Shown in pieces: positions 32,367-55,529 of a stretch of 64,000 nucleotides of DNA. Source of the DNA: Parvibaculaceae bacterium Mf 1.05b.01 (GTDB lineage: Bacteria > Pseudomonadota > Alphaproteobacteria > Parvibaculales > Parvibaculaceae). The notes beneath the pieces were generated by a model that saw nothing but the letters and a program-made list of their open reading frames with translations, was not told the origin of the DNA and did not search any database. Numbering within the stretch: position 1 is the first letter of the stretch; each line of letters opens with the position of its first letter. The stretch covers positions 496,001-560,000 of the forward strand of contig BAOK01000001.1 in NCBI GenBank assembly GCA_000509225.1, in the 5' to 3' direction. The position numbers and the translations under genes were made by a program.

Positions 32367-32735
32367 TCAACTGAGGCGGTAGGCAGCGATAGCAAGGCAG
32401 AACCATCCCAGCATAAACGCGGTGCCGCCGATGGGTGTTATGAGCACCAGAGACCTGCTGCCGGTCAGCCCCAAAAAATAGAGGGAGCCTGAGAAAAGCA
32501 GAATGCCGATGGTGAAAGCCCACCCGGCTGCGGTGGTGAGCGTGGATGGTGCGATGGAGGCGACCCAGGCGACGGCCAGCAAGGCCAGCGCATGGGTCAT
32601 ATGGTATTGGGCCCCAGTCTCAAAGGCGGCGAGGTCTGTGGCGCTTGCACGGGCCTTCAATCCATGGGCACCAAAGGCGCCAAATCCAACGGCCAGCAAA
32701 CCATTAAGGGCGCCAAGCATGAGCCAGAGTTTCAT
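32367..32735 (-). CDS. DUF423 membrane protein
   Basis: A 122-residue protein with four predicted helices. LGALNGLLAVGFGAFGAHGLKA near the N-terminus and YHMTHALALLAVAW with the following GSLYFLGLTG are the DUF423 hallmarks. The family (E. coli YgdD) is uncharacterised. The ATG at 32735 has GGAGAG upstream. It is not clearly coupled to neighbours. Confidence 0.9.
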   Translation of the reverse strand: MKLWLMLGALNGLLAVGFGAFGAHGLKARASATDLAAFETGAQYHMTHALALLAVAWVASIAPSTLTTAAGWAFTIGILLFSGSLYFLGLTGSRSLVLITPIGGTAFMLGWFCLAIAAYRLS

Positions 32736-32918
32736 AAAGATCTCTCCATCCATAGGTCTAGAAAATATTGTGCTTCAGTGTACGCGTTCCAATTCGCGAG
32801 TCGATATGGAGCCATCGACGCAGGGGCAGGCATGGCATTTGACTTGGGGCCCCCGTTTGTCATGCTCAGAAAAAAAGCGCTGGCAAATGCCGCGACAATG
32901 ATCTTCAGGGAGAGGCTC

Positions 32919-34025
32919 ATGCTCACCAAAGCTGACGAATATCCAATACATCAGACACCGGAACCGATTGCCTATTCAGGTACCGACCGGAACTTCTATG
33001 ACCGGTATTTCTTCAACGGTTACACAAAAGACGGGTCGCAGTTTTTTGCAGCGGCACTCGGCGTCTATCCGCATTTGAACGTGATGGATGCGTCCTTCTG
33101 TGTGGTGCATGAGGGCGTGCAGCATAATCTTCATGCCTCCCGCATTCTGCATTCGGAGCGCCTCAATACGAAAGTGGGGCCGATTGCGGTGGAGATTATT
33201 GAGCCACTGCAGTCTGTCCGTTTGATTGTTGATGAGAATGAGCATGGGATCAGCGCAGACCTAACCTTTCATGCGCGTGCGCAGCCAATCGAAGAGCCAC
33301 GCTTTATCACGCGGAATGGCTCACGTGCGATGATGGATGTGACACGGATGACCCAGAACATCACGTGGGAAGGGTGGATTGAGGTCAATGGTGACCGGAT
33401 TGACGTCACCCGCGATGCCTTTGTCGGCACACGTGACCGTTCCTGGGGCACGAGGCCCATCGGGGCAGCGGATGCCCAGCCGGTTGCACCTGCGCAGGAG
33501 CCGCAATTTTATTGGCTCTGGGCGCCGCTCAATTTTGACGATTGCATTTCGCTTTATCACCTCAACACCTATGCCAGTGGGGAGCCGTGGAATACAGGGG
33601 CTGTGATCTGTGGCTTGGGAGACGCAGAGCCAGAGCATACGCGGTCCTGCTGGTCCAATCTGGAGTTTCAATCGGGCACGCGTTTCGCAAAATCGGCGAC
33701 CATTGAGATGGAAAACCATAGACGCGAAAAAACCTTCATTGAGCTCACACCGAAGTGGAATTTCTACATGACAGGCCTTGGCTATATGAACCCCACCTGG
33801 GGTCATGGCAGTCTGCATGGGGAGCTTGAAGTTGGCTATGACACCATCAAGACCGCTGACATCACGGACTCCATGCCGCCATATCTTCATATCCAGGCAT
33901 TTGTCGAAGCGACGATGACCCTTCCAGACGGCGAGGTGAAGGAAGGGAGCGGCATCCTTGAGCAGCTGATCATGGGGCGTCATGAGCCTTCAGGCTTTAC
34001 TGACCTCTTAGATATGGCACCCTGA
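32919..34025 (+). CDS. Uncharacterised protein, candidate AttH/DUF7064-type lipocalin-like fold
   Basis: A 368-residue soluble protein that appears beta-rich. DRYFFNGYTKDGSQFFAAALGVYPHLNVMDASFCV near the N-terminus and GTRDRSWGTRPIG in the middle are its clearest landmarks; I associate them, with moderate confidence, with the DUF7064/7065 (AttH-like) group. The ATG at 32919 lies just after AGGGAGAGG; earlier in-frame starts to 32592 read through the antisense of DUF423 and are unlikely. It is three bases upstream of an APH-family kinase. Function unknown, perhaps binding of a hydrophobic ligand. Confidence 0.75.
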   Translation: MLTKADEYPIHQTPEPIAYSGTDRNFYDRYFFNGYTKDGSQFFAAALGVYPHLNVMDASFCVVHEGVQHNLHASRILHSERLNTKVGPIAVEIIEPLQSVRLIVDENEHGISADLTFHARAQPIEEPRFITRNGSRAMMDVTRMTQNITWEGWIEVNGDRIDVTRDAFVGTRDRSWGTRPIGAADAQPVAPAQEPQFYWLWAPLNFDDCISLYHLNTYASGEPWNTGAVICGLGDAEPEHTRSCWSNLEFQSGTRFAKSATIEMENHRREKTFIELTPKWNFYMTGLGYMNPTWGHGSLHGELEVGYDTIKTADITDSMPPYLHIQAFVEATMTLPDGEVKEGSGILEQLIMGRHEPSGFTDLLDMAP

Positions 34026-41774: not shown

Positions 41775-42752
41775 TTAACCCCAGACGTTCCCATCGTAAG
41801 GCTGCATTTCACTCTCCCTAAAGGAGATTCCAGGATCGCGGTCCTCTTTCAAAAGGAGGGGGCCGTCCAAATCGACTAGGTCTTTGGGTTGGGCAACCAG
41901 CATAGCCGGAGCCATACCGAGAGACGTTCCCACCATGCAGCCCACCATTATGTTAAAGCCAATGTCGCGCGCTGCGCGTGCGGTGGCGATTGCTTCTGTC
42001 AGGCCTCCGGTTTTGTCGAGCTTGATATTGACGGCGTCATAGAGCCCAACAAGGGGTGCAAGTGAGGCAATGCCATGACAGGATTCGTCTGCGCAGAGAG
42101 GGACCGGGCTGTCATAGGATCGCAATAGCTCATCATCTCCTGCAGGCAATGGCTGTTCGATCAGGGAGACACCATGCCTTGCCATCGTCTCCACATTGTT
42201 GAGGAGGTTATCGGGCGTCCATCCCTCATTTGCGTCGATGATCAGTTTTGCCTCTGGTGCCGCACCACGAACAGCCGCGATGCGTTCTTCGTCCCCCTCG
42301 CCACCCAATTTGATTTTGAGGAGCGGGCGCGCTGCAGCTGCGGTCGCAGCGGCGGCCATTTGATCCGGACCGTCGAGACTAAGAGAGAAAGCAGTTGTGA
42401 GTGGCACCGGTGTCACCCCGATCAGGTCTGCCACCCGCTTGCCTGACCGTTTGGCCTCAAGGTCCCAGAACGCACAGTCGATTGCGTTGCGTGCGGCGCC
42501 TGGGGGCAAGGAGAGTTGAAGCTCGGTCCGACTCAATCCCTTTTCGATGGCGGGTGAAAGACTGTTGATTGTCGCCACAACACCTTCCAGGGTTTCTCCA
42601 TAGCGGGCATAGGGGACGCATTCGCCGCGTCCGATCTTGTTACCATCTTGCAAGGTTGCGACGACGACCCGGGCATCCGTTTTTGTGCCACGGGAAATGT
42701 TGAACGCTGCGGCCAGCGGCCAGGTTTCAATGCTGCAAGTCAGACGTGTCAT
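41775..42752 (-). CDS. dgcA: DgcA-like N-acetyl-D-glutamate racemase / dipeptide epimerase
   Basis: A 325-residue enolase-superfamily enzyme. The general-base lysines are in LLKIKLGG, metal ligands are the aspartate and glutamates of IDANEGW, SLIEQPLP and LCADES, and the second lysine is in NIKLDKTGG. This set matches the muconate-lactonizing subgroup that includes L-Ala-D/L-Glu epimerases and the DgcA racemase. The dgcN partner is not in view. It follows the cyclase-like gene by 56 bp on the same strand. A dipeptide epimerase role is the alternative. Confidence 0.85.
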   Translation of the reverse strand: MTRLTCSIETWPLAAAFNISRGTKTDARVVVATLQDGNKIGRGECVPYARYGETLEGVVATINSLSPAIEKGLSRTELQLSLPPGAARNAIDCAFWDLEAKRSGKRVADLIGVTPVPLTTAFSLSLDGPDQMAAAATAAAARPLLKIKLGGEGDEERIAAVRGAAPEAKLIIDANEGWTPDNLLNNVETMARHGVSLIEQPLPAGDDELLRSYDSPVPLCADESCHGIASLAPLVGLYDAVNIKLDKTGGLTEAIATARAARDIGFNIMVGCMVGTSLGMAPAMLVAQPKDLVDLDGPLLLKEDRDPGISFRESEMQPYDGNVWG

Positions 42753-42808: not shown

Positions 42809-45052
42809 TTAGAAACGGCCTGCATAGTAGGACCCGTTCCAGTTCGGGCCAGGCGACTCGTTCTCCATCTGTTTGATCCGCGCTTCATAGAAATCGTAAA
42901 GCGTGGAGATGGAACCGTTGAGGCCACGGCAATGACCCAGTGCTTCACGGGCGGCGTCCCATCGCTGGTTCCGATAGGCATCGAAGAGCTTGCGGTGACC
43001 GTCCTCCAGCGCTCTGAATTTCGGGCTCGCCCGCACGATGGAATCGCCGAGCAGGGCGTAAGCGCGCCAGCCGTCGGGATGGCGAGGTGTCGATACGAGA
43101 TCCACCTCAAGCAGGGCAAACTTGTCGCCGACAGCGTCTTTGAAACCATCGCCGACAATCACAGCGGGCCCATAATTGATTGCATGGTGGCGCAGATAGT
43201 GGGCGATGCTGACTGGTTCTCCCAGGACACCATAATCGTAGCTTTGGGTGGCGCCCATATTGCCAATGATTGCCGAGCCGGTTTCGACACCGATGCTGAC
43301 TGAAAGGGGAATGTGGCTCAGATTGTGTCGTCTGGCATCTTCTTCCAAAAATTCGTTTAGCGTATCCAGCTGTTCGCGCATCAAAAGAGCGGCGTCACAG
43401 GCTTTCATAGCGTGATCTGGTTCACTCAAGGGCGCGTTCCACACAGCCATCATGGTGTCGCCGGTATATCTGTCGACCATGCCTTTGCGGTCATGCACGG
43501 TTTTCGTCAGTGGTGAGAAGAACCGATTCAGAATATCTGCGTAGGCCACAGGGTCTTCCAGGTACCGGTCGGCAATCACGTTGAAACCGCGCAAGCCAAC
43601 AGCAAGAGATGTGACTGTGCGTTGCTCCCCGTGTTCGGGGATCAGTTTTGGATTGCGGACGACCTTTGCAAGCGCTTTTGAGGAGAGGCGCCGGGTCATC
43701 TGGTTTTCTATGAAACGCGTCTCTGCTTCGATGCGGAACCGGTTCACCAAGGTGGTGGTGAAGAAAATGGCTGCGAGTGAGGTTGCAGGGAACATCGGAT
43801 CCAGGAGCCACCCTTCGGTGTCGAACAGGTACCATGCGCCATAGCCTGCGGCGCCAAGACTCAGCACCATGAACATAAAGCCCCAGCCAGCTCGTTTGCG
43901 GATAACCAGGATCATCGTAATGAACCCAATAAGGGTCAGGAACGCGAGCTCGGCATTTTGCGCCCAGGCGGGACGGATGAGATATGCGTTCGAGGCTATC
44001 TGATCGATCGCTTCTGCGATGATGGCGCCGGAGGGAAGGGGACCGATGACCGTGTCATAGGTTCTTTCAGCCCCGTTCACGGAAAAGCCAATGACAGCGA
44101 TCTTGCCATTAAGGTCGAAGGCTTCCGCGTCGCTCATGATACGCCAGGCTTCGTATGTGGATTGCTGAGGCACTGAACGGAAATAAAGGCGCAGAGATCC
44201 ATCGGCCTGAGTTTGGACATTGTTGTCCGTGCCGATGATGGTTACTTCTGCAAGACCAGCAGGTTCACCGATCACGAAGGCCCCCTCGGGAATTGTGACC
44301 GTCGCTTGATATCCGTCGGCGGCCTGATGGACCCGCAATGCCTCCAGCGTGGAAGACGGGAAGAGTTTTCCGTCCAGATTTGTCAGCATTGGAATGCTGC
44401 GTACCCGATCTGATTGGCGCTGACTTGGCAATCCCGCCCCATTGCCGTCGGCATTTCGGGACAGACGGCCAAGGGTTGGAACCCAATTGTCATATCTTGG
44501 CGCATAGCGCAGCGGGTTGCCGCCTATATCTGCAATGTCGGTGACTTGAGATGGTGCGTTTTGTGCGACGCCCTTGCCTGGTGTCAGTGTGACCACAGAC
44601 GATCCGGCTTTCAGGGCCTCAACCAGCAATATGTCGTGATCTGGAAGTTCGGCTAGCGCTGCCGCAAGGGCGGTCACATTCGCTTCTGGCGGAAGCGGAG
44701 ACCAGACCTTGAGCGCCTCGCGGGGCGATGTCGTATCAGCCTCAGGTAGTGGCATGTCCAAGACGACTGTCTCTGCCCCGGCGTTGCGCGCAGCCTCCAC
44801 CAGTTCTGCCAGGCGGGCTCTCGACCAGGGCCAATGTCCATAGCGGGCCGAGGAGGCCGGTCCGATGTCTACATAGACGCTTTTCTGCGCTTCAGATGGT
44901 CTTGGTTTGATCTGCTGATAGAGATCGAATGTCTGATTGGACAGGGCAGTCGCCAACCCGCGCGGGTCATAAAATGACAGACAAAGCGCGCCAATGAGCA
45001 CAATGGCAGGCAGAAGAGCCGACAGGCGTCTGAAAATGGTCGTGGATTGCAT
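42809..45052 (-). CDS. CHASE2-domain protein with degenerate class III cyclase domain
   Basis: A 747-residue membrane protein. Helix 1 (residues 12-27) leads to a periplasmic CHASE2 sensor (about 35-360), then three helices (about 365-435) and a cytoplasmic class III cyclase domain (about 475-680). Key residues differ from active cyclases: glycine (G486) replaces the first metal aspartate, serine (S615) the catalytic asparagine and tyrosine (Y619) the transition-state arginine; the second metal aspartate (D532) stays. It may be an inactive, signalling-only cyclase. DgcA follows 56 bp downstream. Confidence 0.9.
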   Translation of the reverse strand: MQSTTIFRRLSALLPAIVLIGALCLSFYDPRGLATALSNQTFDLYQQIKPRPSEAQKSVYVDIGPASSARYGHWPWSRARLAELVEAARNAGAETVVLDMPLPEADTTSPREALKVWSPLPPEANVTALAAALAELPDHDILLVEALKAGSSVVTLTPGKGVAQNAPSQVTDIADIGGNPLRYAPRYDNWVPTLGRLSRNADGNGAGLPSQRQSDRVRSIPMLTNLDGKLFPSSTLEALRVHQAADGYQATVTIPEGAFVIGEPAGLAEVTIIGTDNNVQTQADGSLRLYFRSVPQQSTYEAWRIMSDAEAFDLNGKIAVIGFSVNGAERTYDTVIGPLPSGAIIAEAIDQIASNAYLIRPAWAQNAELAFLTLIGFITMILVIRKRAGWGFMFMVLSLGAAGYGAWYLFDTEGWLLDPMFPATSLAAIFFTTTLVNRFRIEAETRFIENQMTRRLSSKALAKVVRNPKLIPEHGEQRTVTSLAVGLRGFNVIADRYLEDPVAYADILNRFFSPLTKTVHDRKGMVDRYTGDTMMAVWNAPLSEPDHAMKACDAALLMREQLDTLNEFLEEDARRHNLSHIPLSVSIGVETGSAIIGNMGATQSYDYGVLGEPVSIAHYLRHHAINYGPAVIVGDGFKDAVGDKFALLEVDLVSTPRHPDGWRAYALLGDSIVRASPKFRALEDGHRKLFDAYRNQRWDAAREALGHCRGLNGSISTLYDFYEARIKQMENESPGPNWNGSYYAGRF

Positions 45053-45129: not shown

Positions 45130-45309
45130 AATTTGGAACGGTCGGAGATCGCTCTAGCAGTGTGTTGCAGGAAGTGTTCCAGACGAACTGCCCCATTTTT
45201 CCCACTTTTCCTTGCTTGTTTTGTGTCGTGGGCGCTTTACCATGCGACCCAACAGGATGGAGTCCCAGCAATCTGTGGGGCGGGTTTAGGTAAAATAGGG
45301 AGTGCGGTG

Positions 45310-46296
45310 ATGAGCCGGATGGTGACGGGTTTGAAGATGTGGGTGGCCGCTTTGGCGCTGGTCTTTGCTGCTGGAACAGGTGCTTACGCTGAGCCGGAAC
45401 GGGTTTTCGTCACGGTTGGGACCGGCGGCATTACCGGCGTTTACTATCCCACGGGTGGTGCGATCTGTCGTTTGGTCAATAAGGACCGCAAAACGCATGG
45501 CATTCGCTGCTCGGTAGAAAGCACTGGTGGATCACTCTTTAACATTAACGCCATTCGCGAGGGCGACCTGGAAATGGGTGTCGCTCAATCGGATTGGCAG
45601 TTCCATGCTTATAACGGTACGTCGAAGTTTGCTGAGACGGGTGCCTTCTCCGATCTGCGCTCCGTGTTTTCCCTGCACCCTGAACCCTTCACTGTGGTTG
45701 CCCGTGCAGATGCGGGAATCACCTCCTTTGAAGACCTTGAGGGAAAACGGGTCAATATTGGCAATCCTGGTTCTGGCCAGCGTGCCACAATGGAAGTTGT
45801 GATGGAGGCCCTTGGCTGGACGACCCGAAACTTTGCCCTGGCCTCTGAGCTTAAATCCGCTGAACAGTCACTCGCGCTTTGCGACAATAAGATTGACGCC
45901 ATTGTCTTTACTGTCGGGCACCCAAGTGGCTCCATCCAGGAAGCTACCACCACCTGCGACACCGTGCTTGTGAATGTGAATGGTGAGGCTGTTGATAAGT
46001 TGATTAATGACAACAGTTTCTATGGCCCAGCCACCATTCCAGGCGGCATGTACAATGGAAACCCGGAAGATGTATCCACCTTTGGCGTGGCGGCAACTTT
46101 TGTAACATCCGTGACTGTGGACGACGAAATTGTCTACCAGCTTGTAAAAGCTGTCTTTGAAAACTTTGATGATTTCAAGAAGCTGCATCCAGCCTTTGCC
46201 GTTCTGACCAAAGAGGGCATGGTTCGCAATGCACTGTCGGCGCCGCTCCACCCTGGGGCTGAGCGGTACTATAAGGAAGCCGGGCTTCTTGAATAA
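45310..46296 (+). CDS. TAXI-family TRAP transporter solute-binding protein
   Basis: A 328-residue periplasmic protein. A signal peptide ([15 protein letters not shown]) precedes [26 protein letters not shown], the TAXI signature, then [39 protein letters not shown] proteins bind carboxylates such as glutamate or 2-oxoglutarate for a fused permease. The ATG at 45310 starts the signal peptide; upstream codons to 45133 are unlikely. The fused permease follows 24 bp downstream. Confidence 0.92.
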
Positions 46297-46320
46297 GGAT
46301 CGCAGGCGGGGAGATTTCCG

Positions 46321-48888
46321 TTGAGCGAACCGAACCCAAGCGTTGCTGAAGAGCTGGTCGCGGCTGAAACCGGCGCGCGCACTCATGACGGCACGACGGG
46401 AAAGGTGATTGCAGGCATTGCGATTGCCTGGTCCCTTTTTCAGCTCTGGTACGCGTCACCACTTCCCTTTCTTGTCGCAAGATATATTCCTGTTCTGAAC
46501 GACACAGAAGCGCGGGCGATCCATCTCGCGTTTGCCTTTCTTTTGGCCTTTGTGAGCTTCCCGGCCTTGAAGCGATCACCGCGAGACTGGGTGCCGCTTC
46601 AGGACTGGGTGCTTGGGATCGCGGGCGCTGTGTCTGCGGCCTACCTTTTTGTTTTCAATGATGCGCTCGCCTCGCGACCAGGTCTCCCTAATACGGCGGA
46701 CCTTGTGACAGCAGGCATCGGTCTGGTGCTGTTGCTGGAAGCGACGCGGAGGACGCTTGGTCCGCCGCTGACCGTGATGGCGCTCATCTTTCTGTCCTAT
46801 GTGTTTTTTGGGAACATGGCGCCGGACCTCATCGCCTGGAAGGGGGCTTCCTTCTCTCGTGCCATGAGCCATTTGTGGATTACGACCGAAGGCGTGTTTG
46901 GGATCGCTCTTGGAGTCTCCACGAGTTTCGTCTTCTTGTTTGTACTTTTCGGCTCCTTGCTCGACCGGGCGGGTGCTGGTCACTATTTTATTCAAGTGGC
47001 TTTCGCGCTCCTCGGTCATATGCGGGGCGGGCCTGCGAAAGCGGCCGTTCTCGCATCTGGCATGACGGGCTTGGTGTCTGGTTCGTCTATCGCGAACACA
47101 GTTACGACCGGCACTTTCACCATTCCACTGATGAAGCGGGTCGGCTTCTCAAGCGAAAAGGCCGGTGCTGTTGAGGTTGCTTCATCGGTCAACGGGCAGA
47201 TCATGCCACCTGTTATGGGGGCGGCCGCGTTCCTCATGGTTGAGTATGTGGGAATCTCCTACCTGGAGGTCATCACCCATGCATTCTTGCCGGCTGTGAT
47301 TTCCTACATTGCACTCATCTACATTGTGCACTTGGAGGCGTTGAAGGCTGGCATGGAAGGCTTGCCTCGATCGGGAACACCACCGACGGGCATTTCTCGG
47401 GTTCTGCGGGCTGGAGTATCAATCAGTTCATTCCTGATTGTGGCCGGCATCTGGTATTACGGCATCCTTGCAGCCCAGAGTCTGTTTGGCGCGGCGGCCT
47501 CTTACGTGCTCGCGTTAGGGTTTCTTCTTTTCTACGTGGTGACTCTTGGCTATGCCGCCCGGCACCCAGATTTGCCGCCCGAGGATCCTAACGCACCTAT
47601 CATCGAAACGCCTCGCATTGCGGATATCGGGCGAACAGGACTTCATTTCATTCTCCCGATCGGGGTGTTGGTTTGGTGTTTGATGGTGGAGCGTTTGTCG
47701 CCGGGGCTTGCTGCATTCTGGGCGACGGTCGCAATTGGCTTCATCCTGATTACCCAGCGAGCCGTGCTCGGAGCTTTTCGGGGCCGCCGAGCATTTGTGC
47801 CCGATTTAAAGGCGGGTGTTGTTGATTTCGCGTCAGGGCTGGAGCTGGGCGCGAAGAATATGGTGGCGATTGCGATTGCGACCGCTGCTGCGGGCATCAT
47901 TGTTGGTGCGGTGTCTCTCACCGGTGTGGGGCAGGTGCTGACGGAGCTCGTTGAGATCCTATCCGGCGGAAACCTTCTCGCCATGTTGGGTCTGGTCGCG
48001 ATCCTCTCCATCGTACTGGGCATGGGGCTGCCGACAACCGCCAACTACATCGTCGTGTCTGCTCTGATGGCTGGCGTGGTTGTTGATCTTGGGGCGCAGA
48101 ACGGGCTCGTTGTGCCGCTTATTGCTGTGCACCTGTTTGTTTTTTACTTTGGGATTATGGCCGATGTTACGCCGCCGGTCGGGCTTGCGTCATTTGCGGC
48201 TGCGGCAATTTCACGGGCCGACCCCATCAAGACAGGCATCGCGGCTTTTGCCTATTCGCTGCGGACTGTTGTTCTGCCGTTTCTCTTCATTTTCAATACG
48301 AAACTTCTGCTGATCGGGATCGAAGGGCCGATTGATCTGGCGTTGACGGTTCTAGGTGCGGTGACGGCGGTGCTGGTGTTCGCCGCCGCTACTCAGGGCT
48401 ATTTCGTTGCGCGGAACAAGCTCTGGGAGTCAGCAGTATTGTTGCTGGTCGCGTTCACGCTCTTCCGACCGCAATATTGGGTCGACCAGATTGCGCCACC
48501 GTTTCAGACCGTCCCCTATACAGAGGCCGTGCCTCTTATCGAAGGCGCCGCCGCTGATGTTTCGCTGCGCCTCACAGCGACAGGCGAGACACTGGAGGGA
48601 GATATAGAGACCCGTACGGTGCTTCTACCGCTCGGTGAACAAGCGCCGGTGGATGTTCGCCTGGAACATGCAGGTCTTATTCTTCGGACGGAAGAGGGCA
48701 GCACCTTTGTCGATGATGTGGTATTTGGAGGTCCAGCAGGGGAAGCGGGCATCGATTTTGACTGGGAAGTCCTGTCGATCGAACTCCCTAATGATCAGCC
48801 AAATGCCTATTTCATGTATCTGCCAGCTGGGGCTCTGCTACTCGGCGTCTGGGTGATGCAGCGCCGCCGCAGGATAATGTCGGCTTAG
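46321..48888 (+). CDS. TRAP transporter permease, fused small and large subunits, DUF3394 tail
   Basis: An 855-residue fused DctQM-type permease: the N-terminal four-helix small-subunit part (to about residue 150) continues into the large multi-helix subunit, with GSLLDRAGAGHYFIQVAFALLG and GLVSGSSIANTVTTGTFTIPLMKRVGF typical of the TAXI-associated type. The last ~160 residues are a DUF3394 domain followed by a C-terminal helix. Translation probably begins at TTG 46321, seven bases after GGGGAG. It uses the sodium or proton gradient to import the TAXI ligand. A bidirectional terminator follows. Confidence 0.92.
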   Translation: MSEPNPSVAEELVAAETGARTHDGTTGKVIAGIAIAWSLFQLWYASPLPFLVARYIPVLNDTEARAIHLAFAFLLAFVSFPALKRSPRDWVPLQDWVLGIAGAVSAAYLFVFNDALASRPGLPNTADLVTAGIGLVLLLEATRRTLGPPLTVMALIFLSYVFFGNMAPDLIAWKGASFSRAMSHLWITTEGVFGIALGVSTSFVFLFVLFGSLLDRAGAGHYFIQVAFALLGHMRGGPAKAAVLASGMTGLVSGSSIANTVTTGTFTIPLMKRVGFSSEKAGAVEVASSVNGQIMPPVMGAAAFLMVEYVGISYLEVITHAFLPAVISYIALIYIVHLEALKAGMEGLPRSGTPPTGISRVLRAGVSISSFLIVAGIWYYGILAAQSLFGAAASYVLALGFLLFYVVTLGYAARHPDLPPEDPNAPIIETPRIADIGRTGLHFILPIGVLVWCLMVERLSPGLAAFWATVAIGFILITQRAVLGAFRGRRAFVPDLKAGVVDFASGLELGAKNMVAIAIATAAAGIIVGAVSLTGVGQVLTELVEILSGGNLLAMLGLVAILSIVLGMGLPTTANYIVVSALMAGVVVDLGAQNGLVVPLIAVHLFVFYFGIMADVTPPVGLASFAAAAISRADPIKTGIAAFAYSLRTVVLPFLFIFNTKLLLIGIEGPIDLALTVLGAVTAVLVFAAATQGYFVARNKLWESAVLLLVAFTLFRPQYWVDQIAPPFQTVPYTEAVPLIEGAAADVSLRLTATGETLEGDIETRTVLLPLGEQAPVDVRLEHAGLILRTEEGSTFVDDVVFGGPAGEAGIDFDWEVLSIELPNDQPNAYFMYLPAGALLLGVWVMQRRRRIMSA

Positions 48889-49614: not shown

Positions 49615-50757
49615 ATGAGCGCGACCACGACAGCGACATTGGAAACCGAGGAGGCAGAGGTTGGCTTCCTTGTGCGTGCCAAAGGTGCGTGGACAGTCCG
49701 GCTGGTCCGTGATCTTGATGGACCACTCAGAGAAATCAGCCCGAAGCGCGCCCGCGGCAGAGACGCCGTTATCGATCTCACGGGTCTGACGAGGCTTGAT
49801 ACGGCAGGTGCCTGGTTGCTTCATCGCACCAGCGAGCAGCTTAGGGTCGCGGGGCTCAGAGTTTCCTACCGCGGCGAAACAGCTGAAATCAGGACCCTAT
49901 TGGATGTAGCTGAAGGGTACCGTTTTGGTTTCAACCTTCGCTTGCCGCGCCCTCCTGCCTATATCCAACTCGCTGACAGGGTGGGGGCAACGCTTATATC
50001 CGTTGCGAATGAAGTCCGCGGTTTGTTGGGCTTTTTTGGGCTTTTGCTGGAGGTTCTCTGGCGCACCATCAAGCATCCTAGTCGGTTGCGGGTTGTCCCT
50101 TTGGTTCATCACATGGAACGTGCTGGTCTTGATGCACTGCCCATCGTTTGTCTGATGACATTTCTGATTGGGGGCGTTCTTGCTCAGCAGGGTGCCGTCC
50201 AGCTCCAGAAGTTCGGAGCTGAAGTTTTCACGGTGAATATGGTCGCGATCACATTTTTGCGTGAGATCGGGATTCTCCTCACTGCTATTATTGTTGCGGG
50301 TCGCTCAGGAAGTGCGTTCACCGCGGAAATCGGCTCCATGAAGATGCGCGAAGAGGTGGACGCTATGCGAACCCTTGGCCTGGACCCAATGGACATGCTG
50401 GTGGTGCCCCGCGTTCTTGCCCTGGTCATCATGCTGCCGCTTCTCACCTTTGTTGCTGACATTATGGGCCTGGTTGGTGGTGCCTTAATGGTCTGGCAGA
50501 TGTTGGACACGTCGCCGGGTGTTTTCATCGTGCGTTTGTCGGAGGCGGCAGACTTCTGGACTTTTGGCGTGGGCATTTTGAAAGCGCCGTTGATGGCACT
50601 GGTGATTGCAATGATCGGCTGCTATGCGGGCATGCGTGTCACAGGAAGCGCTGAATCCGTTGGCGTGCAAACAACGCGGTCTGTTGTGCAATCGATTTTC
50701 ATGGTCATAGTGCTTGATGCACTTTTTGCCGTCTTCTTCACTGCGATAGGGATCTGA
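49615..50757 (+). CDS. mlaE: MlaE-family ABC permease with N-terminal STAS domain
   Basis: A 380-residue protein. Residues 1-110 form a STAS domain (AVIDLTGLTRLDTAGAWLLHRT), corresponding to MlaB fused to the permease. The permease half has GGVLAQQGAVQLQKFGAEVFTVNMVAITFLREIG and the conserved EIGSMKMREEVDAMRTLGLDPMD loop of MlaE. It moves phospholipids across the envelope with MlaF, MlaD and the lipoprotein, which follow in that order. The fusion is common in alphaproteobacteria. Confidence 0.93.
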   Translation: MSATTTATLETEEAEVGFLVRAKGAWTVRLVRDLDGPLREISPKRARGRDAVIDLTGLTRLDTAGAWLLHRTSEQLRVAGLRVSYRGETAEIRTLLDVAEGYRFGFNLRLPRPPAYIQLADRVGATLISVANEVRGLLGFFGLLLEVLWRTIKHPSRLRVVPLVHHMERAGLDALPIVCLMTFLIGGVLAQQGAVQLQKFGAEVFTVNMVAITFLREIGILLTAIIVAGRSGSAFTAEIGSMKMREEVDAMRTLGLDPMDMLVVPRVLALVIMLPLLTFVADIMGLVGGALMVWQMLDTSPGVFIVRLSEAADFWTFGVGILKAPLMALVIAMIGCYAGMRVTGSAESVGVQTTRSVVQSIFMVIVLDALFAVFFTAIGI

Positions 50758-50760
50758 TTG

Positions 50761-51537
50761 ATGACAGATGATGACCCTATTATTAGGGTGAGAGGTTTGC
50801 GGAACCAGTTTGGCTCGCAGGTTGTCCATGACAATCTGGATCTTGATGTGAGGCGAGGCGAAGTCCTGGGGATTGTTGGCGGGTCAGGGACAGGCAAGTC
50901 CGTGCTGCTTCGTTCCATTGTTGGCCTGCAACGCCCAACAGCGGGCACGGTTACTGTGCTGGGCCGAACTATTTCCGAGATGGAAGAAGAAGAGCGCAAA
51001 CGGCTGGAGCAACAATGGGGCATCTTGTTTCAAGATGGCGCGTTGTTTTCCGCTCTCACGGTGGCTGAAAATGTCCAGGTTCCCTATCGGGAACATCTTG
51101 GCCTTCCGCTGGATCTGATGGATGAGTTGGCGGCGCTGAAAATCACCATGGTGGGGCTGCCGTCGGATGCCTGTACCAAGTACCCGTCTGAACTTTCGGG
51201 CGGCATGAGGAAGCGGGCCGGGCTGGCGCGGGCCCTGGCGCTTGATCCCGATATTCTCTTTCTGGACGAGCCCACGGCGGGGCTGGATCCTATTGGGGCG
51301 GCCGCTTTTGACACGCTGATACGGGACCTTCAAAGGACACTTGGGTTGACGGTTTTCCTCGTCACGCACGATCTGGATACTCTGCACGCGACGTGTGATC
51401 GGATCGCGGTCCTCGCTGACAAGCGTGTTACGCTGCAGGGGACCATGGATGATATGCTGCGCAGCGATCATCCCTGGATCAAAGAATACTTTACAGGCCC
51501 TCGGGCGCGGGCGGCGCAGGCGTCGGCAACCGGGTAG
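50761..51537 (+). CDS. mlaF: Mla-type ABC transporter ATP-binding protein
   Basis: A 258-residue ABC ATPase. Walker A is VGGSGTGKSVLL, the ABC signature LSGGMRKRAGLARAL, Walker B ILFLDEPTAGLDP, and the switch histidine is in LVTHDLD. The first ATG is at 50761, three bases after the permease stop; an in-frame TTG at 50758 is unlikely. It energises phospholipid movement through MlaE. Confidence 0.94.
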   Translation: MTDDDPIIRVRGLRNQFGSQVVHDNLDLDVRRGEVLGIVGGSGTGKSVLLRSIVGLQRPTAGTVTVLGRTISEMEEEERKRLEQQWGILFQDGALFSALTVAENVQVPYREHLGLPLDLMDELAALKITMVGLPSDACTKYPSELSGGMRKRAGLARALALDPDILFLDEPTAGLDPIGAAAFDTLIRDLQRTLGLTVFLVTHDLDTLHATCDRIAVLADKRVTLQGTMDDMLRSDHPWIKEYFTGPRARAAQASATG

Positions 51538-51552
51538 GGATAGAGAAGCCAC

Positions 51553-52503
51553 ATGGAAATCAAATCCAACAATATCATGATTGGTGCCTTCGCACTGGCA
51601 ACGATTGCAGCCCTGTTCCTGTTCGCGCTGTGGGTTGGCCGGGTGCAGCTTGATCGGACATATGCTTATTATGAGATTGTTTTCTCAGGATCTGTGTCTG
51701 GTCTGACGGAGTCGGGGGTCGTCCAATATAACGGGATCCCAGTTGGCCGTGTTGTTGACCTTCATCTGGCCGAAGACGACCCGAGCAAAGTGGTTGCCCT
51801 CGTTGAGTTGGACGCCCGAACACCTGTGAAAGAAGACACAGACGCCAAACTGGAGCTGTTTGGTTTGACTGGCGTGGCGCAGATCGAGTTGACGGGCGGG
51901 ACGTCTACGGCGCCGCCGCTGATGCCGCAGGCTGGGGAATCTTATCCGACAATTATCGCGGCGCCGTCTGCCTTTCAGGAACTCTTCATGAGTGCGCCAG
52001 ATGCCATCGAAAATGCCAACGCGCTTCTAAGAGACGTGCGACTTCTGGTTCGTGAAAACCAGAGCTCAATCAAAACCATCGTGTCCAATCTGGAAACACT
52101 CTCGGCGGAGCTGGCGGGTAGCTCTGGTGATATTTCTGGAACGTTGGAGAATATCAACACTATTACTTCAGACGTCGCAGCCGCGACCGGCAAACTTGAA
52201 AACCTGGCAGGTACAGCTGACCGGTTGATGGAAAATGATGTGACTGCATTGGTCCGGGAAGCAAAAGGCGCTGCGGCATCCTATGGGCGCGTCGCGGACG
52301 AGCTTGAGCTCGTACTATCGAGCAATCGCAGTTCTATCAATAGTTTCGCGCGAGATGGATTGGGTCAGTTGCCGCTTCTAATAGAAGAGGCTAGGGATAT
52401 GGTTGCGGCTTTGGAGCGTTTTGTTTCCCGTGCCGAGGGCGACCCGGCAGGCTTCTTGCTCGGAAGCGATACACCAGAATATGAACCGGAATCAGGACGA
52501 TAA
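51553..52503 (+). CDS. mlaD: MlaD-family MCE protein
   Basis: A 316-residue protein with one N-terminal helix (IGAFALATIAALFLFALWVG) and a single MCE domain beginning YAYYEIVFSGSVSGLTESGVVQYNGIPVGRV. The C-terminal ~170 residues are long and helical, a tail that is longer than in the enterobacterial MlaD and may extend the periplasmic tunnel. It forms the hexameric ring that receives lipids. It starts 15 bases after mlaF. The stop overlaps neither neighbour; the auxiliary lipoprotein starts one base after it. Confidence 0.93.
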   Translation: MEIKSNNIMIGAFALATIAALFLFALWVGRVQLDRTYAYYEIVFSGSVSGLTESGVVQYNGIPVGRVVDLHLAEDDPSKVVALVELDARTPVKEDTDAKLELFGLTGVAQIELTGGTSTAPPLMPQAGESYPTIIAAPSAFQELFMSAPDAIENANALLRDVRLLVRENQSSIKTIVSNLETLSAELAGSSGDISGTLENINTITSDVAAATGKLENLAGTADRLMENDVTALVREAKGAAASYGRVADELELVLSSNRSSINSFARDGLGQLPLLIEEARDMVAALERFVSRAEGDPAGFLLGSDTPEYEPESGR

Positions 52504-52504
52504 A

Positions 52505-53158
52505 ATGAAGAAGTCTCAAGTCAGGTTTACACGGTTTATGGGGATCGCGTTTGTTGCGGTTGCTCTTCAGGCCTGCGCGCTGGCTGCAGTGGGAACGAAT
52601 GAGGCACCTGACATTTACGTTCTCACGGCTCCCTCGATTGATTTCGGGCAGAACCGGCCACAAGTATCGACACAGATTGTTGTTGATGCACCCGAAGCGC
52701 CAGCAGCTCTGAATTCGAACCGCATTGTTTTCCAACCGTCAGCTAATGAGATCCGATATTTCTCAGGGGCGCGATGGGCAGACCGGGTGCCTGACATGGT
52801 TCAGGTTCTTCTGGTTGACGCCATGGATCAGGGTGGGCGCTTTCAGGCAGTGGGTCCGCGCTCTGCGGGGATCCGATCTGATTATCTCCTGCAGGTCTCC
52901 ATTTCGCGTTTCGGCGTAGAGAGTGAAGGGGCGGAGATGGATGATGTACGTGTTCAGATCAACTCAAAGTTGGTTCGTCGTTTCAGTGACACGGTGATCG
53001 CAAGCCGACGCTTTGAGAGCGTGAAAGAGTCTGAGAGTTCTCGAACCATCGATGTTGTGGGGGCATTTGACGACGCGAATTCTGAAGTGCTCTCAGCCAT
53101 TGCGTTGTGGGCTTATGACGAAATTGTTTCTGCTGAGCGAGTTGACCCCGCCAGCTAG
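52505..53158 (+). CDS. ABC-type transport auxiliary lipoprotein (PqiC/MlaB-like system component)
   Basis: A 217-residue lipoprotein with the lipobox LQAC (cysteine 24). The mature part (YVLTAPSIDF, then IVFQPSANEIRYFSGARWADRVPDMVQVLLVDAM) is the ABC-type transport auxiliary lipoprotein domain of PqiC. Many alphaproteobacterial Mla operons end with such a protein, which bridges the MCE ring to the outer membrane. AGGACGA lies five bases before ATG 52505; an ATG at 52481 would overlap mlaD and lacks a good site. Confidence 0.9.
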   Translation: MKKSQVRFTRFMGIAFVAVALQACALAAVGTNEAPDIYVLTAPSIDFGQNRPQVSTQIVVDAPEAPAALNSNRIVFQPSANEIRYFSGARWADRVPDMVQVLLVDAMDQGGRFQAVGPRSAGIRSDYLLQVSISRFGVESEGAEMDDVRVQINSKLVRRFSDTVIASRRFESVKESESSRTIDVVGAFDDANSEVLSAIALWAYDEIVSAERVDPAS

Positions 53159-53181: not shown

Positions 53182-55332
53182 CTAGGACAGGCGTCCGGTC
53201 GCCTGCGCAAGCAGAAGATAGACTTTCCCGGTATCAGAGGTGAGGTAGGTGTCTGCGAGGATGCCTTCCCGGTCTCGCTCGGCTGCTTCTGTGAGTAGCT
53301 GCTCGAACTGCACCATGAATTTGTCCGCATTCTCACGAAACTCGCGTTCGGCGGTGTATTTTTGCGCTATCTGATCGTAAAGTTCTCGGCCCTGGAGGTT
53401 GTAGAGACGGCGCGCGAAGACATTTCGCTCTCCCGCCTGGTATCGGCGCCAAAGGTCCGCCGGGGGGCTTTGCTCAAGGGCCCGGTCAAGGTCAATTGCG
53501 ATCGATTGCAGGCTCTCGATGATGTGTAACGACCTTCGATGAAGCTCGCCATCATTGGCCTGCTGGGTAGGGCGCTCAGCATGTCCGGCAGCGGCTAGCA
53601 GGTCTGAAATCCCCCAGGAGCCGTTTTCCGGGAGCCGCCCGGCGCTGCTTTGTGGTGGTGCTGGCCGGGTCGTGGCGACAGTTTGAGCAACAGCGCGCTG
53701 TGGCCCGCTGCGATCCAGGTTCCGGGCATGGCGCACGACGATTTCGGCAATTGAGGCAAGGGCAGACACTTGGTCCTCCAGGACCCGCTGAAGGGCTTGT
53801 GCACCGTCAGCGGCTTCTTCGGGCAGTTCTGCCATCCTCTTTTCAAGTTCTTCGCTTGCTGAGTGGAGCGCTCGCCCTGCCTCTTTGGCTGCGCCGCCAA
53901 TGCCAAACATGGCTGCGCCTAAGCGCTCGCCAGCGGCTTCTGCCTCTGTCGCAGATTTTTCCATTTCAGAGCGCAAATCCACTATGCGCTTATCAAGCTT
54001 CATGGCGGCGGCATTTGATCGTGCTGTGATCGCGTTTTCGATCTCTGAGGCAGCTTTTTCCAGAGACATCGAGGCAGCCTGTGCTGCTTCAGTTGTCTGT
54101 TTGGCGGCATTGCCAAAGGTTGCTGTCGCAGCTTCCAGACCGTCGCTGGCGCTGCGCGATGCATCGCCAACGGTGTTTGCGGCATCGTTCGCGGCGCGGG
54201 TAATGGCGCTCACTTCTCCTGCAAAGGTGGAGCCCAATTCCTTGGCGCGCGACGAGGCGGTTTCCATGGAATGAGTGAGTTCTCGGGAAAGACGGGCAAC
54301 GGCTTCATCAATTTCAACCGTCCGTTCAGCCATTTGCCCAGATGTGTTCTCAATGAGCGTTCGATGCTTCTCGAAGGAGGCATCCAGACGGTTGCGCTCA
54401 CTCTCAAGGGCCAGGGCAGCTTCGGCTATAGCGTCCCGCTGGGCTTCATAGCGTTCGCTAAGCCCATCAGCCTTTGAGAGAGCTGTCTGTGCAACCACTT
54501 CCAGGCGAGAGGATTGCCGGTCGAGCATGGATGTTGTGGCATCTGCGCCGCCAATTGCTGCCTCACTGGCGCGGGAAAGGGCTTCTGACTGATGGCGCAG
54601 CCTTTCGCTCGCCGCTTCCATTTTCTGTTCGGCAGATGCTGTGACACTGCGTACCGAGGCAACCTGGCCAGACAGGTTTCGCGTTACCGTGTCGGTTTCA
54701 TTGCCCAATGACTGTGACAAGCCTTCCAGGGCTTGTTTGTGCTCGCCCAACATCTCCCGCAGCTTGGCGGCTCGAAGCTCCGCGCGCTCACTTCCTGCAT
54801 CAATGTCGGTGAGCTGCTCCTGCAGCATGATGTTTAGGGCAGCTGCGCGGGCCAGAGAGTCATCTATGCCTTTGTTCACGGTATCAAGGTGAAGGGCTAC
54901 CTGATTGCCAAGGCGGGCGACATCGCCGATCGCGGTTTCTTCCGGCTCTGTGAGGCGGAGCGCGGTCCGAGCAAGCGCGTCTGCCATCAAGCGCATTTCC
55001 TGACTGCGCCAGGCAATAAAGGCGACCAGCCAGATCAGCGTGAGCGGCGCGAGGGCCGCCGCCGCGAGGAGAGCGAGTTCTGCCCTCGGTGCTGTCGCCA
55101 ATCCGTTCAGCCCGTAAAATCCGGCTACATAGGCGATCATGGAGCCGACCCAGAGGGCCGTTAGCGCACCTGCCATCGTCAAAATCGTCCGGCTCGGGCG
55201 CCGGGACATCAGGCGGTAGAGCTCCCCGGTTGCGGCGGAATCTTCATTCGCTGGCGCTGCCGACAGGCTGGGACCAGCCGCTGGTTCAGTTGCGACGGAC
55301 AGAGAAGATGTTGGGCGATCTACTTGTTCCAT
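53182..55332 (-). CDS. TipN-like membrane-anchored coiled-coil protein
   Basis: A 716-residue protein. A short cytoplasmic N-terminus leads to two helices (about 48-75 and 82-110), then about 450 residues of alanine- and glutamate-rich coiled coil, a proline linker near 565 and a conserved C-terminal domain (LWRRYQAGERNVFARRLYNL, then YLTSDTGKVYLLLAQATGR). The order of two N-terminal membrane segments and a large coiled coil matches Caulobacter TipN, a pole-marking protein. Assignment is by layout plus remembered C-terminal similarity; a chromosome- or motility-related role is possible. No close partner gene. Confidence 0.72.
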   Translation of the reverse strand: MEQVDRPTSSLSVATEPAAGPSLSAAPANEDSAATGELYRLMSRRPSRTILTMAGALTALWVGSMIAYVAGFYGLNGLATAPRAELALLAAAALAPLTLIWLVAFIAWRSQEMRLMADALARTALRLTEPEETAIGDVARLGNQVALHLDTVNKGIDDSLARAAALNIMLQEQLTDIDAGSERAELRAAKLREMLGEHKQALEGLSQSLGNETDTVTRNLSGQVASVRSVTASAEQKMEAASERLRHQSEALSRASEAAIGGADATTSMLDRQSSRLEVVAQTALSKADGLSERYEAQRDAIAEAALALESERNRLDASFEKHRTLIENTSGQMAERTVEIDEAVARLSRELTHSMETASSRAKELGSTFAGEVSAITRAANDAANTVGDASRSASDGLEAATATFGNAAKQTTEAAQAASMSLEKAASEIENAITARSNAAAMKLDKRIVDLRSEMEKSATEAEAAGERLGAAMFGIGGAAKEAGRALHSASEELEKRMAELPEEAADGAQALQRVLEDQVSALASIAEIVVRHARNLDRSGPQRAVAQTVATTRPAPPQSSAGRLPENGSWGISDLLAAAGHAERPTQQANDGELHRRSLHIIESLQSIAIDLDRALEQSPPADLWRRYQAGERNVFARRLYNLQGRELYDQIAQKYTAEREFRENADKFMVQFEQLLTEAAERDREGILADTYLTSDTGKVYLLLAQATGRLS

Positions 55333-55529
55333 AAGGATTTTTTCTCTTGGCCTCTGAGAAATTGAAGGGTGTTTGATTGGGCTGCCGGAGTCAAGCTGCA
55401 GAGTGTGTCCGCGCCCGTTGTGGATAGGGAATTGTCGCTAGAGCTTGCCGCATTTGACGCAAAGGTTCAGGATTTGCTCTCAAGCCGATTTGAGCGCAAC
55501 GCGCACGGCACTCCGACGGGATCAAGTCT

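Follow-up and report, generated by a model that had tools for sequence, protein, structure and literature searches.

A CHASE2 protein of Parvibaculaceae is probably a stand-alone receptor with a pseudo-cyclase domain

We find that the 747-aa protein encoded at 42809..45052 on the minus strand of the window, the 64,000-nucleotide stretch of Parvibaculaceae DNA analysed here, joins a CHASE2 sensor domain to a class III cyclase fold in which nearly all catalytic residues are replaced. These replacements are shared throughout the family, and the altered domain is tightly conserved. We consider the protein to be, in all probability, a stand-alone pseudo-cyclase receptor. Most likely, it was vertically inherited, and its output is the binding of a protein or a ligand.

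Domains, fold and catalytic residues

The first-pass annotation had described an intact reading frame over 747 codons, and the ORF list confirmed it. Searching Pfam, we found a CHASE2 domain at residues 25-378 (43919..44980, minus strand; PF05226, E 7.6e-30, 104.8 bits) and a class III cyclase-like domain at residues 479-619 (43196..43618, minus strand; Guanylate_cyc, PF00211, E 4.6e-07, 30.1 bits against a cut-off of 21.9). The fold match of the latter is wider than the Pfam span, covering about residues 473-673. No NCBIfam model matched the 747-aa protein at E<=0.001. The AF2 model, built from a 34-row alignment (pLDDT 83.1, pTM 0.61), shows two long helices after CHASE2 (362-413 and 420-452) and three helices in a C-terminal tail (residues 671-731; 42860..43042, minus strand). 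The helices at about 362-452 are presumably membrane-inserted, which would give the layout of a CHASE2 receptor, a CHASE2 domain followed by membrane helices.

Performing VIA-align comparisons with the model, we matched the cyclase domain to CyaB (3r5g) with Z 21.7 over 190 residues (rmsd 2.7), to CyaC (1wc0-1wc6) with Z 20.8 and to Cya2 (2w01) with Z 20.6. Across the CyaB, CyaC and Cya2 structures, Z ranged from 18.0 to 21.7 over about 190 residues, and Foldseek agreed with these fold matches. The match to CyaC is the outcome of a check that had been proposed along with the first annotation. With PF00211 over its gathering score and Z of about 21 to solved cyclases, the domain has the homologous fold of a class III nucleotidyl cyclase. 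Such matches to a predicted model establish the fold and not the function.

Reading the residues directly and in a HMMER alignment with 6fht and 2w01, we located Gly in place of the first metal-binding Asp (G486, 43595..43597), Arg in place of the substrate (base) Lys (R528, 43469..43471; the facing residue is Lys in 6fht and Glu in 2w01), Ser in place of the transition-state Asn (S615, 43208..43210) and Tyr in place of the transition-state Arg (Y619, 43196..43198), all on the minus strand. The second metal-binding Asp is retained (D532, 43457..43459, minus strand). These are exactly the four substitutions and the one kept aspartate that the first-pass annotation had named. It had overlooked two more changes. 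Position 608 is Gly, where the 98 canonical rows carry Ser (93) or Thr (5), and the stretch that is mostly K-G-K in active relatives reads P656-R657-H658 in the family alignment (43079..43087, minus strand). In class III cyclases, a lysine of the K-G-K stretch contacts the triphosphate. A class III enzyme is recognised by two metal-binding Asp residues, a base-selecting Lys (Glu in guanylate cyclases) and the transition-state Asn and Arg; among these, the window protein keeps D532 alone. Ma1120 is described as active although it carries Ala where the Asn would be (PMC4215837), so a change of the Asn alone is no proof of inactivity. In a homodimer of the window protein, both sites would be without the first metal Asp, the base Lys, the Asn/Arg pair and the K-G-K stretch, so that canonical catalysis would be very unlikely.

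Conservation, selection and ancestry

Searching 387 alphaproteobacterial genomes, we obtained matches at E<=1e-60 in 146 and read the six key positions in 148 of the matches listed and in the window gene. The canonical D-K-D-S/T-N-R set occurred in 133 of these 149 (127 D-K-D-S-N-R and 6 D-K-D-T-N-R). The 16 non-canonical ones among the matches listed belong to family f1 (six), f108 (three), f5, f4 and f81 (two each) and f14 (one). The pattern is D-R-G-S-N-L in f108, G-R-D-S-V-R in f5 and E-K-D-S-G-R in the f14 row (L282). The dead CHASE2 cyclases of f5 (L160/L226 in genome G040 and L195/L227 in G161) have G/R at the first-metal and Lys positions, keep the Arg and lie away from mla.

The family f1 is that of the window, Parvibaculaceae, and comprises Parvibaculum, Tepidicaulis and MAGs labelled Rhodobiaceae; the window's own genus is g1. 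All 35 distinct readable rows of f1 carry G486, R528, G608, R657 and H658. Position 619 is Tyr in 31 and His in 4, position 615 is Ser in 29, Thr in 3, Gly in 2 and Asn in one (L065), and position 532 is Asp in 33 and Glu in 2. Conservation of the four substitutions in homologues, which had been suggested as a check, is thus complete for G486 and R528 and extensive for the other two. The f1 copies go down to about 50% identity with the window protein, and all 35 readable ones are dead nearly alike. The altered residue set is far beyond chance. One MAG copy (L216 in G005) is split between two frames, by a sequencing error or a true break.

We calculated Nei-Gojobori dN/dS for 24 chosen pairs (15 f1, 2 f108 and 7 canonical), which are few and share sequences and so are not independent. 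Three f1 pairs, of the window protein with L060, L061 and L089, were dropped for saturated dS in at least one domain. The 12 usable f1 pairs gave dN/dS values of 0-0.043 (median 0.029) for the dead domain, in each pair lower than for CHASE2 (0.025-0.352). The active domain gave 0.033-0.066 (median 0.052) in the 7 canonical pairs, below CHASE2 in 6 of them, and the ranges of the f1 and canonical domains overlap. The tail values were 0-0.165 in f1, with a median of 0.02, and 0.074-0.27 in canonical pairs, with a median of 0.114. The domain values of the two f108 pairs were 0.022 and 0.129. CHASE2 itself showed 0.11-0.35 in Parvibaculum (8 pairs), 0.093 in the Tepidicaulis pair, 0.025-0.040 in g1 and 0.045-0.090 in canonical pairs.

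At 45-55% CHASE2 identity, the f1 dead domain was 83% and the tail 82% identical (122 non-independent pairs, L061 left out), against 63% and 44% for the canonical domain and tail (1219 non-independent pairs), a gap that is partly confounded because CHASE2 evolves faster in Parvibaculum, though not in g1. At sixteen positions within 440-747, the f1 rows share a fixed residue that differs from the near-fixed canonical one. Purifying selection on the dead domain is very strong. The constraint on it is at least as strict as in the active relatives, and that on the tail is clearly stricter; the gene is thus not decaying. Catalytic motifs lost in a protein that selection conserves are the mark of a pseudoenzyme, and the original view of a pseudo-enzyme rather than a decaying gene is upheld by the conservation across all 35 rows, the low dN/dS of the 12 f1 pairs and the preserved fold.

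Building a tree of 145 rows (L057, L091, L148 and L200 left out as short, L212 as having no cyclase part), we found the 35 f1 rows beside 4 f108 rows (SH-aLRT 96). The 98 canonical rows formed a separate group, which also included L210. In this tree, which included the six key columns, eight other non-canonical rows, L210 among them, needed 3 changes. A 69-row tree without the six key columns recovered f1 with f108 (SH-aLRT 99.5) and separated all 23 dead rows from the rest by a branch with SH-aLRT 99.7; it is a quick, unrooted tree of chosen rows with long branches (L090 and L093 flagged), L091 being left out and L210 counted with the canonical rows. L282 is in neither tree. With some confidence, f1 and f108 would be sisters. 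We claim only this sisterhood because the branches are long, the tree is quick and unrooted and the eight other non-canonical rows needed 3 changes; for these reasons, a deep single origin of all the dead copies is not claimed. A single ancient loss with later drift is compatible with the differing patterns in f1, f108, f4, f81 and f5, and so are several losses.

Genomic neighbourhood and cyclic-nucleotide proteins

A dgcA-type N-acetyl-D-Glu racemase gene (41775..42752, minus strand; NCBIfam NF042940 over cut-off) begins 56 bp downstream of the pseudo-cyclase gene on the same strand, and the two are a probable operon. Comparing the f1 copies, we found dgcA directly downstream on the same strand at 0.8 kb or less in 34 of 35 and at 5.0 kb in L064. 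On the other side lies the divergent MlaE-MlaF-MlaD-auxiliary lipoprotein operon (49615..53155, plus strand), with MlaE at 49615-50757, MlaF at 50758-51537, MlaD at 51553-52503 and the auxiliary lipoprotein at 52385-53155, all on the plus strand. The mlaE gene is upstream and divergent within 5.2 kb in all 35 f1 copies. Outside f1, it is adjacent in 7 of the 10 testable dead copies (f108 3 of 3 tested, f4 one of two, f81 two of two, and L093). No mla was found near the f5 copies L226 and L227, and no mlaE in the 1.8 kb examined upstream of L088. The mlaE test did not include L091, and the f108 copy L037, L210 and L282 stood outside the neighbourhood comparison.

None of 16 canonical controls, which came from the higher-scoring among the 133 and were not a random draw, has mlaE within 5.2 kb (for L230, 2.1 kb upstream was examined). 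In three of the 16 (L232, L238 and L241, from f29 and f113), mlaE lies at 7.2-7.4 kb in the same orientation. The position at this locus may therefore be inherited, and the site of the dead gene was probably once occupied by the gene of an active CHASE2 cyclase. In the complete genome G007, from another genus of the same family, dgcA is followed by cyt c and then mlaE, and no cyclase gene intervenes, a clean loss. This genome thus does without the gene, whose tie to Mla is not strict.

Three further features accompany the locus. Between the pseudo-cyclase gene and mlaE, the window has a TAXI-type TRAP pair (45133-48888; a binding protein and a fused permease with DUF3394). The pair occupies this place in the g1, g3 and g4 copies read, and we did not find it there in those read from Parvibaculum (g5). 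A gene for a 750-aa protein that no Pfam or NCBIfam model matched at our thresholds (53185-55437, minus strand) is retained in several families at the distal end of the mla operon. A gene for a Rv3169-family protein (32493-34022, plus strand), beside an APH-type phosphotransferase gene, is near the locus in several relatives.

Searching 40 Parvibaculaceae genomes, we found a PF00211 match in 37. The dead protein is the only such match in 31 of the 40, the window's genome included. Four genomes (G017, G019, G028 and G031) have a second cyclase-type protein beside the dead one, canonical in three and D-R-D-R-N-R in G028. In G011 (canonical) and G425 (not alignable to the pseudo-cyclase gene), PF00211 matches only proteins other than the dead one. 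G007, G013 and G034 had no PF00211 match, and G013 has a CHASE2 fragment of the gene at a contig end.

A search of the window's genome for a class I cyclase (PF01295) found none. The genome has one CYTH protein, whose ORF runs well beyond the CYTH part. Its other CHASE2 proteins (L032 and L034) were rejected as cyclases: one is a CHASE2-PAS-histidine kinase encoded next to a FecR-like gene, the other a membrane protein with CHASE2 alone, the non-CHASE2 domains being assigned by eye. Seven proteins have a cNMP-binding fold, and by eye only L252 has the full phosphate-binding cassette. L252 is a MlotiK1-like cyclic-nucleotide-gated potassium channel (C2:634353-634592 and around) with an intact GEMAL..RRSA cassette, a motif also seen in the aligned MlotiK1 chain. 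From this intact cassette, some cyclic nucleotide may still be sensed in this cell. The channel is kept in a genome in which we recognise no active cyclase of class III or class I.

Competing explanations and known systems

In the receptor that we favour, the chain would homodimerise like its active relatives, and a periplasmic signal on CHASE2 would alter the dimer geometry. Rather than producing cAMP or cGMP, the cytosolic pseudo-cyclase and tail would then bind or release a protein, or hold a ligand. The receptor probably descends from an active CHASE2 cyclase encoded close to this chromosomal locus. We infer a conformational relay because dead sites with a regulatory role, such as those of NeoR and tmAC, depend on an active half next to them, and as far as PF00211 sees, 31 of the 40 family genomes lack one. 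The constant neighbours Mla and dgcA make envelope homeostasis the most likely pathway, a link by location only; by location alone, too, Mla and DgcA are candidate partners. Counted against this receptor reading, besides the active Ma1120, the overlapping dN/dS ranges and the partly confounded identity comparison, are the D532 kept in 33 of 35 rows, the N615 kept in L065, the f108 pair with a dN/dS of 0.129, the intact cassette of L252 and the loss of the gene in G007.

Some of these points would suit a cyclase with rebuilt chemistry, in which other residues have taken over the metal and transition-state roles, or another substrate is used. The former active-site region is strongly conserved, with D495, N491, R528, E612, R657 and H658 newly fixed; D532 is nearly constant, a cNMP-type channel is still present, and one canonical residue is described as dispensable in Ma1120 (PMC4215837). 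We hold such a cyclase to be improbable, as a single chain has the metal Asp, the base Lys, the Asn, the Arg and K-G-K replaced together, close relatives vary between S, T, G and N at 615 and between Y and H at 619, unlike a new catalytic residue, and even D532 is Glu in two rows. A gene in early decay, a pseudogene in the making, would account for the split MAG copy in G005 and for the absence of the gene from G007. It is scarcely credible in view of a dN/dS near zero in the dead domain and of 35 rows that remain dead nearly alike despite identity down to about 50%; the selection data refute it, unless the open copies are unexpressed. The first annotation also offered a regulatory sensor or partner as a possible role. 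The sensor role fits the architecture; that of partner in a class III heterodimer finds no support, given the sole PF00211 match in 31 of 40 family genomes. In such a heterodimer, it would be the dead half beside an active class III cyclase, as in NeoR and the mammalian two-domain cyclases. The NeoR catalytic domain, described as lacking the Asn/Arg motif and inactive alone, does form active heterodimers (PMC12264004), and four family genomes have a second cyclase-type protein. However, NeoR is described as keeping the metal Asps that it donates (PMC12264004), one of which is Gly in the window protein. An active class III partner encoded in the window's genome was rejected as far as PF00211 sees, and a class III heterodimer is unlikely there because the pseudo-cyclase is the genome's only recognisable class III cyclase domain. 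The heterodimer is very improbable as an explanation and largely refuted for this genome, unless a divergent cyclase escapes PF00211. A non-cyclase partner is possible.

A narrower proposal overlaps with the favoured receptor, namely a signalling scaffold specific to the Mla operon, in which the receptor directly controls Mla lipid transport or its expression. In its favour, mlaE lies divergently beside every one of the 35 family copies and beside 7 of the 10 dead copies that could be compared elsewhere, versus 0 of 16 canonical controls within 5.2 kb. We rank it as a narrower rival, on balance unlikely, because canonical cyclases of f29 and f113 (3 of 16) lie near the same operon in the same orientation, a position that may be inherited, and because G007 retains mla without the gene; the f5 copies L226 and L227 have no mla nearby, and L088 none in 1.8 kb upstream. 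Returning to the stand-alone receptor, we put forward a wider model only tentatively. Stand-alone pseudo-cyclase receptors of several alphaproteobacterial families may form a lineage that arose at the mla/dgcA locus, where an active CHASE2 cyclase was re-used as a messenger-free relay, the cyclase dimer serving as a protein-binding conformational switch that couples the periplasm to envelope lipid or peptidoglycan maintenance.

In the open-licence PMC literature, none of the titles or opening lines among the matches listed concerned a stand-alone bacterial pseudo-cyclase or this gene, which is weak evidence of novelty. The 'adenylate/guanylate cyclase' annotations of Parvibaculaceae should not be taken as evidence of cAMP signalling.

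CyaB, CyaC and Cya2, which are active enzymes, share the fold of the window protein but have the canonical residues, with Glu for Lys in Cya2. Soluble guanylate cyclase has a pseudo-site with a regulatory role similar to that of the degenerate second site of mammalian tmAC. The tmAC site has lost its catalytic residues, like the domain studied here, and is described as regulatory (PMC12264004); unlike tmAC, where one site of the pair is active, both sites of a homodimer of the window protein would be dead. The CHASE2-domain cyclases CyaD1, CyaD2 and CyaK of Sinorhizobium meliloti are called receptor-like, and CyaD1 without CHASE2 is described as making cAMP constitutively (PMC13001267, PMC5498481), so their output is under CHASE2 control. 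The window protein likewise joins a CHASE2 sensor to a class III cyclase domain; unlike these cyclases, whose cAMP activates Clr, it is without the catalytic residues, and its genome has no other recognised class III cyclase domain. NeoR of the chytrid rhodopsin guanylyl cyclases also pairs a sensor with a cyclase fold without the Asn/Arg motif and is described as inactive alone (PMC12264004). It keeps its metal Asps and forms heterodimers with RGC, whereas in 31 of 40 family genomes we found no class III partner for the dead protein. If the stand-alone receptor is true, it would provide a clean natural test of the roles of the class III fold besides making cAMP; the dead halves cited here work beside an active half.
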